Assembly (NCBI GenBank): GCA_033675265.1
Contig: JAUJYZ010000825.1
Span: forward strand, 186,001 to 250,000
Length of the DNA: 64,000 nucleotides
Direction of reading: 5' to 3'
From: Actinostola sp. cb2023
Lineage: Eukaryota; Cnidaria; Anthozoa; Actiniaria; Actinostolidae
Shown: positions 282-54,969 of the stretch, piece by piece
Layout: each line of letters opens with the position of its first letter
How positions within the stretch are numbered: the first letter of the stretch is position 1
The notes under the pieces: generated by a model
What the model was told of the DNA's origin: nothing
The model's input: only the letters and a program-made list of their open reading frames with translations
The model's database searches: none
Program-made: the position numbers and the translations under genes

Positions 282-37602
<37,321 letters not shown>

Positions 37603-37815
37603 AATTCTTTGTTTTTTTTAAAATTTTACGAAGAAAGGGTCTTAATTATTTGTTACTTGTTTTTGGCTAATCTAAGTCCTGTGGGCTTTTGTGCGTTGCC
37701 CAATACTCCAGTTGTTTAGAAAACATGAAATTCAAGAAAGGCTGATACTACGTATGAAATAAAAAGCTTAACACAACAGCCAACATGATAGAGCAAGAGA
37801 GAGCCAGGATCGGCA

Positions 37816-37859
37816 ACCGTAGACAGCTGTTTCGTTCTTTTGGAACTCATCAGTACGGT
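37816..37859 (-). ncRNA. Type I hammerhead ribozyme, inverted copy
   Basis: Reverse complement contains accgta, then ctgatgag, stem II gttc/gaac with a caaaa loop, cgaaa, acagctgt (self-complementary stem III), and gtc followed by tacggt closing stem I. All core positions are present. Confidence 0.9.
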
Positions 37860-38371
37860 GTAGCGAGAGCAACAAACACCAACTCAGAAAGCCAATGTAT
37901 GCTACTTGCGTGTCGACTCTGAAACTCAACCAGCTCAAATTTAGAAACCTGCCCATTGGCTCACACCACAACACGTGCGGTATATGGTCCAAAGCAAAAT
38001 ATCATGTTGGTGTTGTGTTTAACCTAGGTGTGGATGGAAAAACCAATCCTACACGGAATGCATAGACAAACTATGCTAAAGAATTACAGCATAACGGATC
38101 TAAGAAGATCTACGCCCCAAACATCATGAAAATATAAACTTGAAAGCATAGTTTGTCTATGCATTCCGTGTAGATTGGTTTTGTCCATCCACACCTAGGT
38201 TAAACACAACACCAACATGATATTTTGGATTCTTGGCCTTTGGACCATAACACTGACAATAGATGTCATGGAGCCAATGGGCAGGTTTCTAAATTTGAGC
38301 TGGTTGAGTTTCAGAGTCGACACGCAAGTAGCATACATTGGCTTTCTGAGTTTGTTTGTTGCTCTCGCTAC

Positions 38372-38415
38372 ACCGTACTGATGAGTTCCAAAAGAACGAA
38401 ACAGCTGTCTACGGT
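38372..38415 (+). ncRNA. Type I hammerhead ribozyme, first direct copy
   Basis: Stem I arms accgta (38372-38377) and tacggt (38410-38415); core ctgatga from 38378; stem II gttc-caaaa-gaac; gaaa; stem III acagctgt; predicted cleavage after C38409 of gtc. Confidence 0.9.
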
Positions 38416-38877
38416 TGCCGATCCTGGCTCTCTCTTGCTCTATCATGTTGGTGTTGTGTTAAGCTTTTTATTTCTACGTAGTATCAGCCTTTCTTGAATT
38501 TCATGTTTGCCATATGTATAGCTGATTAGATCTTTTACAGATCCTACGTATACCTACAGCATTTTCGTTCACGGTTCCCTCTTTCAAGTTTATATTTTCA
38601 TGTTTTGGACCGTAGATCTTCTTAGATCCGTTATGCTGTAATTCTTTAGCATAGTTTGTCTATGCATTCCGTGTAGGATTGGTTTTGTCCATCCACACCT
38701 AGGTTAAACACAACACCAACATGATATTTTGGATTCTTGGCCTTTGGACCATATTACCGCACGTGTTGTGGTGTGAGCCAATGGGCAGGTTTCTAAATTT
38801 GAGCTGGTTGAGTTTCAGAGTCGACACGCAAGTAGCATACATTGGCTTTCTGAGTTGGTGTTTGTTGCTCTCGCTAC

Positions 38878-38921
38878 ACCGTACTGATGAGTTCCAAAAG
38901 AACGAAACAGCTGTCTACGGT
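38878..38921 (+). ncRNA. Type I hammerhead ribozyme, second direct copy
   Basis: Same core as the copy at 38372; predicted cleavage after C38915, exactly 506 bases from the first. A transcript through both would release a 506-nt unit. Confidence 0.9.
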
Positions 38922-40053
38922 TGCCGATCCTGGCTCCCTCTTGCTCTATCATGTTGGTGTTGTGTTAAGCTTTTTATTTCTACGTAGTATCAGCCTTTCT
39001 TGAATTTCATGTTTGCCATATGTATAGCTGATTAGATCTTTTACAGATCCTACGTATACCTACAGCATTTTCGTTCACGGTTCCCTCTTTCAAGTTGTTT
39101 AGACACCGCTGTACTCCTTGACAGAAGACTCATTTGTTCTGCCTCAATCCTGAGAGTACCCCGTGGAATTGAAAAAAAGTTTCAATTTTTTTATCAGCAA
39201 TTTTCGCGTTCTCGTTGATATTTGTGAAAATTATACGTACTGAGTCGAGGCTAAGGCTGAGCAAATCACTGTGTCTTTTGACAAGGAGTACAGCGGTGTC
39301 TAACTACTCGAAACTGGAGTATTACATGTAATACTGGATGACTGTTTGAAAACGCTTCAGTACACAAAAGCATCAGTAATGCCATGAGATAAATCTGTGG
39401 AAAATGCTATTTTTCGACCTCCAGTTGATTGTCGATCTTCTAGCTTCGAAGTCGTTTGCTTACCTTAGTTAGTAACCCAAACCCACTAGGCCAGTTACAG
39501 ATTGCTGTCACAGGCACTTTGTGTTATGTTATGCTATTTTTAGATTTACTATCTCATTCGTATTGAAATAACGGTCGTGACGTAGTAGTGCTCAATCATG
39601 ACTGATATAAACGATCAAAACTAATCCTGGGACAAAGACAGGAGTTGTGGAACAATGATTTACAGGCTTTTGAAGACCAAGGTAATTAATAATATATATA
39701 TCAAATACGAGAAAGACTTCTTCCGATTTCAAAACACCGTGAAGCGCTTCGTTTTCATAACCCGACTCGAGGTGTTTTGAACGTAGGGGAAGAACTATTT
39801 CGAGTGTTTGATCTAGCTAGAACCGTATATATACAGACACTTGAACCGTGCAACATTTTAAAATATAGTGGTTTTATTTATATGAAAATTAACGATTCAG
39901 TCAGTCTTGCAGTGTTTGTATGTAACTCAGTCTGTATTTAGTGATATTTCTATTTTAGTGAAAAAAGTTGCACGGCTTTAGTCGGTTTGTACGGCTAGAT
40001 TCTCTGATCATTAATAATTCGTGAAGCAATTAAGTTTTATAATGTACTATAAT

Positions 40054-49107: not shown

Positions 49108-52100
49108 TAGGAGCCGCCATCTTGAACATAATAATTAATAATAATTATTAACATGGACAGGGCGTACAAATAGGACTACCTTGATACCAGGTCTAGATTG
49201 TAATAATATAACTCAAGCAGCCGCCATCTTGAACACGGACAGGACGTACAAAAAGGACTACCATGATACCAGGTCTAGATTGTAATAATATAACTCAAGC
49301 AGCCGCCAACTTGAACATGGACAGGACGTACAAAAAGGACTACCTTGATACCAGGTCTAGATTGTAATAATATAACTCAAGCAGCCGCCATCTTGAACAC
49401 GGACAGGACGTACAAAAAGGACTACCTTGATACCAGGTCTAGATTGTAATAATATAACTCAAGCAGCCGCCATCTTGAACATGGACAGGACGTACAAAAA
49501 GGACTACCTTGATACCAGGTCTAGATTGTAATAATATAACTCAAGCAGCCTCCATCTTGAACATGGACAGGACGTACGAAAAGGACTACCTTGATACCAG
49601 GTCTAGATTGTAATAATATAACTCAAGCAGCCGCCATCTTGAACACGGACAGGACGTACAAAAAGGACTACCATGATACCAGGTCTAGATTGTAATAATA
49701 AAACTCAAGCAGCCGCCATCTTGACCATGGACAGGACGTACAAATAGGACTACCTATACCAGGTCTAGATTGTAATAATATAACTCAAGCAGCCGCCATC
49801 TTGAACATGGACAGGACGTACAAAAAGGACTACCTTGATACCAGGTCTAGATTGTAATAATATAACTCAAGCAGCCGCCATCTTGAACACGGACAGGACG
49901 TACAAAAAGGACTACCATGATACCAGGTCTAGATTGTAATAATATAACTCAAGCAGCCGCCATCTTGACCATGGACAGGACGTACAAATAGGACTACCTA
50001 TACCAGGTCTAGATTGTAATAATATAACTCAACCAGCCGCCATCTGAACATGGACAGGACGTACAAAAAGGACTACATACCTTGACACCAGGTCTAGATT
50101 GTAATAATATAACTCAAGCAGCCGCCATCTTGACCATGGACAGGACGTACAAAAAAGGACTACCTTGACACCAGGTCTAGATTGTAATAATATAACTCAA
50201 GCAGCCAAGCATCCGCCACCATGGACAGGACAGTACGTACAAAAAGGACTACCTTGATACCAGGTCTAGATTGTAATAATATAACTCAAGCAGCCTCCAT
50301 CTTGAACATGGACAGGACGTACGAAAAGGACTACCTTGATACCAGGTCTAGATTGTAATAATATAACTCAAGCAGCCGCCATCTTGAACACGGACAGGAC
50401 GTACAAAAAGGACTACCATGATACCAGGTCTAGATTGTAATAATATAACTCAAGCAGCCGCCATCTTGACCATGGACAGGACGTACAAATAGGACTACCT
50501 ATACCAGGTCTAGATTGTGTAATAATAATATAACTCAAGCAGCCGCCATCTTGAACATGGACAGGACGTACAAAAAGGACTACCTTGATACCAGGTCTAG
50601 ATTGTAATAATATAACTCAAGCAGCCGCCATCTTGAACACGGACAGGACGTACAAAAAGGACTACCATGATACCAGGTCTAGATTGTAATAATATAACTC
50701 AAGCAGCCGCCATCTTGACCATGGACAGGACGTACAAATAGGACTACCTATACCAGGTCTAGATTGTAATAATATAACTCAACCAGCCGCCATCTTGAAC
50801 ATGGACAGGACGTACAAAAAGGACTACATACCTTGACACCAGGTCTAGATTGTAATAATATAACTCAAGCAGCCGCCATCTTGACCATGGACAGGACGTA
50901 CAAAAAGGACTACCTTGACACCAGGTCTAGATTGTAATAATATAACTCAAGCAGCCGCCATCTTGACCATGGACAGGACGTACAAAAAGGACTACCTTGA
51001 TACCAGGTCTAGTCTAGATTGTAATAATATAACTCAACCAGCCTCCATCTTGAACATGGACAGGACGTACAAAAAGGACTACCTTGATACCAGGTCTAGA
51101 TTGTAATAATATAACTCAAGCAGCCGCCATCTTGAACACGGACAGGACGTACAAATAGGACTACCTATACCAGGTCTAGATTGTAATAATATAACTCAAG
51201 CAGCCGCCATCTTGAACATGGACAGGACGTACAAAAAGGACTACCTTGATACCAGGTCTAGATTGTAATAATATAACTCAAGCAGCCGCCATCTTGAACA
51301 TGGACAGGACGTACAAAAAGGACTACCTTGATACCAGGTCTAGATTGTAATAATATAACTCAACCAGCCTCCATCTTGAACATGGACAGGACGTACGAAA
51401 AGGACTACCTTGATACCAGGTCTAGATTGTAATAATATAACTCAAGCAGCCGCCATCTTGAACACGGACAGGACGTACAAAAAGGACTACCATGATACCA
51501 GGTCTAGATTGTAATAATATAACTCAAGCAGCCGCCATCTTGACCATGGACAGGACGTACAAATAGGACTACCTATACCAGGTCTAGATTGTAATAATAT
51601 AACTCAAGCAGCCGCCATCTTGAACATGGACAGGACGTACAAAAAGGACTACCTTGATACCAGGTCTAGATTGTAATAATATAACTCAAGCAGCCGCCAT
51701 CTTGACCATGGACAGGACGTACAAAAAGGACTACCATGATACCAGGTCTAGATTGTAATAATATAACTCAAGCAGCCGCCATCTTGAACACGGACAGGAC
51801 GTACAAAAAGGACTACCATGATACCAGGTCTAGATTGTAATAATATAACTCAAGCAGCCGCCATCTTGACCATGGACAGGACGTACAAATAGGACTACCT
51901 ATACCAGGTCTAGATTGTAATAATATAACTCAAGCAGCCGCCATCTTGAACATGGACAGGACGTACAAAAAGGACTACCTTGATACCAGGTCTAGATTGT
52001 AATAATATAACTCAAGCAGCCGCCATCTTGACCATGGACAGGACGTACAAAAAGGACTACCATGATACCAGGTCTAGATTGTAATAATATAACTCAAGCA

Positions 52101-54969
52101 GCCGCCATCTTGACCATGGACAGGACGTACAAATAGGACTACCTATACCAGGTCTAGATTGTAATAATATAACTCAACCAGCCGCCATCTTGAACATGGA
52201 CAGGACGTACAAAAAGGACTACATACCTTGACACCAGGTCTAGATTGTAATAATATAACTCAAGCAGCCGCCATCTTGACCATGGACAGGACGTACAAAA
52301 AGGACTACCTTGACACCAGGTCTAGATTGTAATAATATAACTCAAGCAGCCGCCATCTTGACCATGGACAGGACGTACAAAAAGGACTACCTTGATACCA
52401 GGTCTAGATTGTAATAATATAACTCAACCAGCCTCCATCTTGAACATGGACAGGACGTACAAAAAGGACTACCTTGATACCAGGTCTAGATTGTAATAAT
52501 ATAACTCAAGCAGCCGCCATCTTGAACACGGACAGGACGTACAAATAGGACTACCTATACCAGGTCTAGATTGTAATAATATAACTCAAGCAGCCGCCAT
52601 CTTGAACATGGACAGGACGTACAAAAAGGACTACCTTGATACCAGGTCTAGATTGTAATAATATAACTCAAGCAGCCGCCATCTTGAACATGGACAGGAC
52701 GTACAAAAAGGACTACCATGATACCAGGTCTAGATTGTAATAATATAACTCAAGCAGCCGCCATCTTGACCATGGACAGGACGTACAAATAGGACTACCT
52801 ATACCAGGTCTAGATTGTAATAATATAACTCAACCAGCCGCCATCTTGAACATGGACAGGACGTACAAAAAGGACTACCTTGATACCAGGTCTAGATTGT
52901 AATAATATAACTCAAGCAGCCTCCATCTTGAACATGGACAGGACGTACAAAAAAGGACTACCTTGATACCAGGTCTAGATTGTAATAATATAACTCAAGC
53001 AGCCGCCATCTTGAACACGGACAGGACGTACAAATAGGACTACCTATACCAGGTCTAGATTGTAATAATATAACTCAACCAGCCGCCATCTTGAACATGG
53101 ACAGGACGTACAAAAAGGACTACCTTGATACCAGGTCTAGATTGTAATAATATAACTCAACCAGCCTCCATCTTGAACATGGACAGGACGTACGAAAAGG
53201 ACTACCTTGATACCAGGTCTAGATTGTAATAATATAACTCAAGCAGCCGCCATCTTGAACACGGACAGGACGTACAAAAAGGACTACCATGATACCAGGT
53301 CTAGATTGTAATAATATAACTCAAGCAGCCGCCATCTTGACCATGGACAGGACGTACAAATAGGACTACCTATACCAGGTCTAGATTGTAATAATATAAC
53401 TCAAGCAGCCGCCATCTTGAACATGGACAGGACGTACAAAAAGGACTACCTTGATACCAGGTCTAGATTGTAATAATATAACTCAAGCAGCCGCCATCTT
53501 GACCATGGACAGGACGTACAAAAAGGACTACCATGATACCAGGTCTAGATTGTAATAATATAACTCAAGCAGCCGCCATCTTGAACACGGACAGGACGTA
53601 CAAAAAGGACTACCATGATACCAGGTCTAGATTGTAATAATATAACTCAAGCAGCCGCCATCTTGACCATGGACAGGACGTACAAATAGGACTACCTATA
53701 CCAGGTCTAGATTGTAATAATATAACTCAAGCAGCCGCCATCTTGAACATGGACAGGACGTACAAAAAGGACTACCTTGATACCAGGTCTAGATTGTAAT
53801 AATATAACTCAAGCAGCCGCCATCTTGACCATGGACAGGACGTACAAAAAGGACTACCATGATACCAGGTCTAGATTGTAATAATATAACTCAAGCAGCC
53901 GCCATCTTGACCATGGACAGGACGTACAAATAGGACTACCTATACCAGGTCTAGATTGTAATAATATAACTCAACCAGCCGCCATCTTGAACATGGACAG
54001 GACGTACAAAAAGGACTACATACCTTGACACCAGGTCTAGATTGTAATAATATAACTCAAGCAGCCGCCATCTTGACCATGGACAGGACGTACAAAAAGG
54101 ACTACCTTGACACCAGGTCTAGATTGTAATAATATAACTCAAGCAGCCGCCATCTTGACCATGGACAGGACGTACAAAAAGGACTACCTTGATACCAGGT
54201 CTAGATTGTAATAATATAACTCAACCAGCCTCCATCTTGAACATGGACAGGACGTACAAAAAGGACTACCTTGATACCAGGTCTAGATTGTAATAATATA
54301 ACTCAAGCAGCCGCCATCTTGAACACGGACAGGACGTACAAATAGGACTACCTATACCAGGTCTAGATTGTAATAATATAACTCAAGCAGCCGCCATCTT
54401 GAACATGGACAGGACGTACAAAAAGGACTACCTTGATACCAGGTCTAGATTGTAATAATATAACTCAAGCAGCCGCCATCTTGAACATGGACAGGACGTA
54501 CAAAAAGGACTACCATGATACCAGGTCTAGATTGTAATAATATAACTCAAGCAGCCGCCATCTTGACCATGGACAGGACGTACAAATAGGACTACCTATA
54601 CCAGGTCTAGATTGTAATAATATAACTCAACCAGCCGCCATCTTGAACATGGACAGGACGTACAAAAAGGACTACATACCTTGACACCAGGTCTAGATTG
54701 TAATAATATAACTCAAGCAGCCGCCATCTTGACCATGGACAGGACGTACAAAAAGGACTACCTTGACACCAGGTCTAGATTGTAATAATATAACTCAAGC
54801 AGCCGCCATCTTGACCATGGACAGGACGTACAAAAAGGAATACCTTGATACCAGGTCTAGATTGTAATAATATAACTCAACCAGCCTCCATCTTGAACAT
54901 GGACAGGACGTACAAAAAGGACTACCTTGATACCAGGTCTAGATTGTAATAATATAACTCAAGCAGCCG
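49108..54969 (+). repeat. 82-bp satellite with higher-order structure, about 72 units
   Basis: Unit: gcagccgccatcttgaacat, ggacaggacgtacaaaaagg, actaccttgataccaggtct, agattgtaataatataactc, aa. Variants (accatgg, aacacgg, aaatagg with ctatacc, acatacc, cgaaaa, cctcc) recur in a fixed order. The block 51363-53156 is repeated from 53157 for about 18 units. Short ORFs only. Confidence 0.97.

Follow-up and report, generated by a model that had tools for sequence, protein, structure and literature searches.

A non-coding hammerhead repeat family in a sea-anemone genome with arm ends like those of Penelope-like elements

The mover of animal retrozymes has been left undecided between Penelope-like elements (PLEs) and LINEs in the relevant parts of two accounts (PMC7229834, PMC11722881): Cervera and de la Pena (2020, PMC7229834) propose PLEs as the likely mover and treat them as a strong candidate, and a review from 2024 lists either LINEs or PLEs (PMC11722881). 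Among PLEs, a purified Anolis element has been seen to cut both strands and extend each of them, with two neighbouring internal sites as starting points; from these comes a genomic tail of 30-40 bp, which the authors regard as unique to PLEs. No difference in start site between the strands was observed, and ribozyme mutants still inserted, unprocessed RNA being the main template (PMC11167929). Rotifer Penelopes are described with inverted pseudo-LTRs (pLTRs), a 9-bp target-site duplication (TSD) and a tail that one repeat may carry (PMC3846280). The pDo500 repeats of crickets, roughly 500 bp long, contain a cleaving hammerhead (PMC2837043). Here we analyse a hammerhead-bearing insertion and the family to which it belongs.

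An insertion with three hammerhead motifs

Within the window (the whole 64-kb stretch of DNA that was analysed), the ribozyme element occupies positions 37721-39092 and is flanked by an 11-bp TSD. Its features are collected in Table 1.

Table 1. Coordinates of the insertion and its parts in the window
Feature	Position	Strand	Remarks
Left TSD copy AGTTGTTTAGA	37710..37720		11 bp
Inverted arm	37721..38146	-	426 bp, ~0.86 unit; sense on minus strand; locus L031
Hammerhead_1 motif in inverted arm	37816..37859	-	RF00163, 36.1 bits; predicted cleavage C37822/U37821
Direct arm	38145..39092	+	~1.9 units; start at unit 239; outer end at T site
Hammerhead_1 motif	38372..38415	+	RF00163, 36.1 bits; predicted cleavage C38409/U38410
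506-nt unit	38410..38915	+	between two predicted cleavage points
Conserved stretch, unit 1-171	38410..38580	+	follows cleavage point, holds S, extends up to T
Hammerhead_1 motif	38878..38921	+	RF00163, 36.1 bits; predicted cleavage C38915/U38916
Right TSD copy AGTTGTTTAGA	39093..39103		11 bp

The original prediction for this DNA had described three type I hammerheads, two of them direct copies 506 bases apart and the third inverted, without a reverse transcriptase (RT). The Rfam covariance check bears out all three motifs, each of which exceeds the gathering score of 34 (E 2.1e-05); they are the sole above-gathering matches to any Rfam family in the 64-kb window. The spacing is confirmed by the motif positions and by a 238-bp stretch that recurs in the window copy at 506-bp spacing with 100% identity. 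The inverted motif likewise stands, but the arm that holds it is too short for a full copy of the unit. Its outer (sense 3′) end falls at unit position 99, that is, at site S (see below), and its inner end at unit 172; for the direct arm the BLAST match extends to unit 181, the final 4 bases lying inside the TSD. In agreement with the lack of an RT, Pfam returned nothing above cut-off for the one open reading frame (ORF) scanned in the insertion or for 17 other ORFs of the window, and the two weak, sub-cut-off matches from window ORFs are to unrelated families. The TSD, the unlike ends and the finding that the inverted arm is common in the 506-nt-unit family go beyond that prediction.

What surrounds the element looks like a small inverted repeat of MITE type (37699-37720 and 39093-39323), near one end of which it lies. 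Read in reverse complement, 39262-39326 contains the left flank AATACTCCAGTT and after it the right flank TTAGACACCGCTGTACTCCTTG, which supports the empty site as reconstructed here. The direct-arm repeats of the window copy (13 differences in 268) are less uniform than the family norm. A 20-bp stretch of its middle unit, TGACAATAGATGTCATGGAG (38254-38273), is identical to the left flank at 37277-37296, ~440 bp outside the element; this patch, which is absent from the other family loci compared, is either templated or an assembly error. The window is also rich in tandem repeats (98 entries), with large arrays at 49150-54969 (82-bp unit) and 9815-11838 (56-bp unit).

Stem III of the ribozyme is the palindrome ACAGCTGT, present in 11 of 12 distinct motifs. 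The palindrome had been taken as favouring dimer-assisted cleavage; since another reading of the same bases is a stem of 2 bp capped by an AGCU tetraloop, dimer dependence is possible and not implied, and a stem III of two base pairs plus tetraloop has been described as resembling invertebrate hammerheads (PMC7229834). The minimum-energy fold of the isolated 44-mer differs from the hammerhead. As regards the canonical loop 1-loop 2 contacts of metazoan retrozymes, the Rfam model reaches stem I to 6 bp only, and a 71-nt fold lacks an evident stem I extension. Help from a second motif copy, in amphibian motifs (PMC7229834), and help to the ribozyme from a PLE protein (PMC11167929) are published parallels.

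Pairing was analysed in the 12 distinct motifs, taken from loci L001-L075 and biased as a set towards the Rfam model because some were recruited through that model: 97.2% of cells were paired, against 44.4% at most when partners were slid by 1-3 columns (an earlier subset of 9 chosen motifs gave 99.1%). Compensated changes affect two stem I pairs and one stem II pair, at least three compensated pairs being found also in 37 of 500 shuffles and the number of pair types being equalled by every shuffle; stem I is broken in two of the 12 motifs (L044, L068). Of the two polarities of the 506-nt unit, only one shows the ribozyme to Rfam. RNA of this unit has a fold of -163.9 kcal/mol, compared with -121.4 +/- 6.1 for shuffles (z = -7.0; 0 of 100 as low). 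A conserved peptide of 38 codons from the ribozyme ATG was considered and rejected because the CTGAGGA and CTGACGA subtypes have lost the ATG.

A dispersed family with two kinds of arm end

Throughout the 424-Mb assembly (1594 contigs, the window being C351:186001-250000), the 32-nt core CTGANGAGTTCCAAAAGAACGAAACAGCTGTC has 202 exact matches (95 forward, 107 reverse) and the reversed-pattern control has none, from which we conclude that the hammerhead pattern of the window is more than chance and that the further genomic copies for which the original prediction had proposed a search do exist. A broader core pattern gave 130 forward and 143 reverse exact matches (control 0), and a search with the unit, for which 40 of 307 candidate regions were scored, gave 148 matches, the first 32 listed being at 98-100% identity. 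The window element is thus one copy of a recent, multicopy, non-coding family. Among the first places listed, which extend to C855, opposite-strand core neighbours less than 2 kb apart are minus-then-plus, and hence head-to-head, in 19 of 19 cases, as read from the listing, two of them being copies of one insertion.

Alignment of 41 loci to the repeated unit, by which the arm ends were mapped, gave arms of at most ~3 units and whole insertions of ~1 to 4.5 units. Two-armed insertions are head-to-head, with the sense 3′ ends facing the flanks, and these ends form two clusters, S (+93 to +105 past the cleavage point) and T (+179 to +193). With bounds of 90-106 for S and 172-194 for T, 29 of 34 two-armed insertions pair one S with one T end, five have one off-site end (unit positions 53, 70, 75, 115 and 157), and none is S/S or T/T (binomial p = 1.9e-9 for the 29 with both ends clustered); the closest approach to a like-like pair is L075 (115/94). 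A TSD of at least 11 bp (11-15 bp) flanks 31 of the 34, as opposed to 3 of 204 mismatched flank pairs, and is absent from L044, L083 and L086.

The discovery set, a sample that favours long copies and includes one insertion (C1378) because it was examined for its PLE fragment, contributes S+T ends in 21 of 24 two-armed insertions. Since the bounds were derived from this set, the cleaner test is the validation set of 10 previously unused head-to-head pairs from the core-match listing, for which the outcome was predicted beforehand: 8 of 10 are S+T with TSDs of 11-13 bp, and the exceptions, L083 (157/96) and L086 (53/189), each have one off-site end and no TSD. Single-armed insertions (13 distinct) end at S in seven cases and at T in six. 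In the sister subtypes (L001-L030), examined last and kept outside the count of 34, seven two-armed insertions count as distinct: four combine S+T ends with 11-bp TSDs (L003, L015, L018, L024), three have one off-site end (L009, 75/175, with an 11-bp TSD; L017 and L026, poorly aligned and without TSD), and none is like-like.

Several loci show further features. L058, L059, L061 and L062 are one insertion recurring at several places in the same target site, and hence carried along either in a larger duplication or on allelic contigs. L006-L008 (C913:335558-342396) form a tandem 1.9-kb repeat of at least two successive copies, in which ~1.4 kb of apparently non-coding extra sequence is added to the ribozyme unit at unit 372-373. 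A second hammerhead family (L019, L030 and further rows), with stem I GCCGTG/CACGGC, many copies and head-to-head inverted arms, is otherwise unrelated to the 506-nt unit. A GPCR gene adjoins L011, its best named match being a sea-anemone protein at 50% identity; together with the named matches of the L077 frame (see below), this points to a cnidarian host, probably an anthozoan.

Divergence was compared across 39 loci, of which L058, L061 and L062 have a common target site. It amounts to 63 of 10,873 positions within an arm (0.58%), 90 of 11,486 between opposite arms of one insertion (0.78%) and 2.37% between loci. The far lower divergence within insertions indicates that each was mostly copied from one sequence, as is expected of a circle and equally of a homogeneous multimer. 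Arms of up to ~3 units run through intact predicted cleavage sites. A linear template cut at the ribozyme was rejected: in the 41 aligned loci and the validation set, no inner arm end comes as close as 2 nt to the cleavage point, bar that of the edge-cut L043, and the nearest lie 4, 8 and 9 nt away. The inner arm junctions overlap by at least 1 nt in 25 of 33 cases (43% expected) and by at least 2 nt in 18 of 33 (15% expected). Variable sites, counted where a minor state recurs in at least 4 segments, are confined to one part of the unit, with 0 of 171 at unit 1-171 versus 36 of 335 elsewhere (p = 3.7e-7, an optimistic value as segments of one insertion are non-independent), and we propose unit 1-171 as a putative recognition region for the copying enzyme.

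The copying machinery and rival explanations

As best explanation we propose, with a probability of roughly 80%, a retrozyme-like, non-coding, RT-less element copied in trans by PLE-type (RT + GIY-YIG) machinery. That PLE-type machinery did the copying is, taken by itself, very probable on the sequence evidence; as for the template, a circle would have about even odds against an uncut multimer, the insertion of ribozyme mutants and the use of unprocessed RNA in the Anolis system counting against the circle. From the end signature, the absent ORF and the retrozyme organisation we conclude that the 506-nt-unit element behaves as a template for PLEs without being one, and that it matches the animal retrozymes in all but length. 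The original prediction had offered either a non-autonomous PLE or an animal retrozyme; both classes find support, which upholds it in part, and it is the 'either' that probably does not hold, since retrozyme organisation and PLE-like end signature suggest both together.

By this mechanism, an endonuclease would nick the two target strands ~11 bp apart, and each nicked 3′ end would prime synthesis on the element RNA from either of two fixed internal positions, one arm beginning at S (~+99 past the cleavage point) and the other at T (~+182). Synthesis would go round a ribozyme-cut, ligated circle, or along a homogeneous multimer, to give up to ~3 units per arm, and the two cDNAs would be joined through microhomology. 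A bolder version, which we hold tentatively and at somewhat less than even odds, has one PLE dimer and one RNA circle serving each insertion, with subunits that prime opposite strands at S and T in an obligatory asymmetry; animal retrozymes of this kind might then be true PLE satellites whose signal is the ~180 nt past the ribozyme cut, and one-S-one-T a general PLE assembly rule.

The Penelope-like RT with the same terminal repeats for which the original prediction had proposed a search was not found among the candidates scored. PLEs are present in the genome: GIY-YIG matches number 149 among 150 scored of 541 candidates, and there is at least one PLE-type frame of 724 aa (L077, below). In these searches, which scored part of their candidates, no PLE carrying the 506-nt unit was found. 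Blastx of the unit gave no match below E 1.6 in a 125-protein set that included PLE-type proteins. Three candidates for an autonomous partner were rejected. L077 (C899:263300-266700) is an element of PLE type. Homologues of its 724-aa open frame have the domains typical of PLE-type proteins (named matches are Montipora and Stylophora proteins; no match in PDB), but the 506-nt unit is absent from it. L077 has on both strands a CTGAAGAAGGC...GCCGAAAC stretch, unreported by Rfam, which we take to resemble a minimal PLE hammerhead. At L014/L076 (C1378), a family copy is split by a ~1.6-kb insert holding a broken GIY-YIG-type frame; the short inverted ends of this insert, and the ~9 bp of unit sequence repeated at either edge of it, identify a nested element. 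The C913 form (L006-L008) has no ORF longer than 119 aa in its 6.8-kb stretch.

The most serious rival is that the copies are decayed pLTRs of an ordinary autonomous PLE, internally deleted and carrying the ribozyme as a passenger without a life cycle of its own. The PLE-type layout and ends would follow, solo pLTRs with TSDs are reported to have captured unrelated sequence between them (PMC3846280), and a master PLE with the same pLTR may sit among the unscored candidates; yet the hundreds of near-identical cores, the lack of a PLE ORF in the copies examined, the lack of protein similarity between the unit and the PLE-type proteins compared, and tandem units that are nearly free of differences within an arm make this an unlikely, if serious, alternative.

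Movement of a retrozyme by a LINE-type RT, with inverted arms from twin priming, is markedly less probable. In its favour, twin priming produces head-to-head inverted 5′ ends and microhomology joins. LINEs have also been named as possible retrozyme movers (PMC11722881, PMC7229834), but the outer ends lie one at S and the other at T, both of them fixed internal positions, no poly-A or 3′-terminal start appears among the junctions listed, and internal starts on both strands are reported PLE features (PMC11167929). Capture of a viroid-like or viral circular RNA, suggested by the strongly self-paired unit with its hammerhead, is very improbable given hundreds of dispersed copies, zero exact matches of the core pattern in IMG/VR viral contigs and GTDB genome contigs, and a ribozyme seen by Rfam on one polarity only. 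Least probable of all is a satellite unit spread by recombination and not by reverse transcription: 506-bp tandem units with a hammerhead do recall pDo500 (PMC2837043), but dispersed insertions of such limited length, with fixed ends and above all TSDs, speak against it.

Copying by PLE-type machinery would have wider implications. Fixed unlike ends, TSDs and same-template arms are a readable record pointing to such machinery, and the same record can be sought wherever an animal genome contains hammerhead repeats; the PLE marks on the element ends thereby hint at the copier of animal ribozyme parasites. The one-S-one-T pattern makes the PLE insertion model testable in vitro. In the parts of the PLE literature covered, where the tail is optional on one repeat, we did not come across an exclusive pairing of ends stated as a rule, nor such a rule for an RT-less ribozyme element, the limited coverage of that literature making this weak evidence of novelty.

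Comparison with described elements

Akin to metazoan non-LTR retrozymes as described in PMC7229834, the family consists of a non-coding unit that is repeated in tandem and has type I hammerheads at its boundaries, with a GC content below 50% (41.1% for the 506-nt-unit element), strongly self-paired RNA and TSDs longer than 4 bp. That class is expressed as linear and circular RNA. Head-to-head inverted arms with fixed unlike ends are not among the features given there for metazoan retrozymes. The unit had been predicted to be longer than animal retrozymes, which holds against the 170-400 nt of PMC7229834 but not against the ~500-bp pDo500 repeats of Dolichopoda (PMC2837043), whose unit also contains a hammerhead. 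The latter are described as satellite DNA; TSD-bounded head-to-head insertions are a feature of the element here, and long head-to-tail arrays of the satellite type were not met among the 41 loci (~3 units per arm at most). Plant LTR retrozymes (PMC4918200; features per PMC7229834) are likewise RT-less with a ribozyme-bounded unit RNA, but have type III hammerheads, 4-bp TSDs, a PBS and PPT, and units of 600-800 nt, as opposed to the type I hammerheads and TSDs of at least 11 bp found here. Terminons are attached to telomeric repeats (PMC6431247); here, 31 of 34 two-armed insertions lie between TSDs at internal sites.

Like hammerhead-bearing PLEs (PMC11167929, PMC3846280), the family has repeats in tandem and in inverted orientation, a TSD, two internal starts and a ribozyme lying upstream of where copying starts, so that PLE-type inverted arm, TSD and tail-type ends are all present. 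It differs from them in the absence of an ORF, the RT + GIY-YIG frame of an autonomous PLE being missing from the insertion (ORF scanned) as well as from the blastx results of the unit, and in the recognisable stem III of its ribozyme. With respect to the Anolis PLE (PMC11167929), S and T are ~83 bp apart, compared with a 30-40-bp tail, and the ends differ by strand, where no between-strand difference in start was observed for Anolis. The main start of the latter, obtained by subtraction from the published figures, nevertheless lies ~85-92 nt past the ribozyme cut, compared with ~93-105 nt here.
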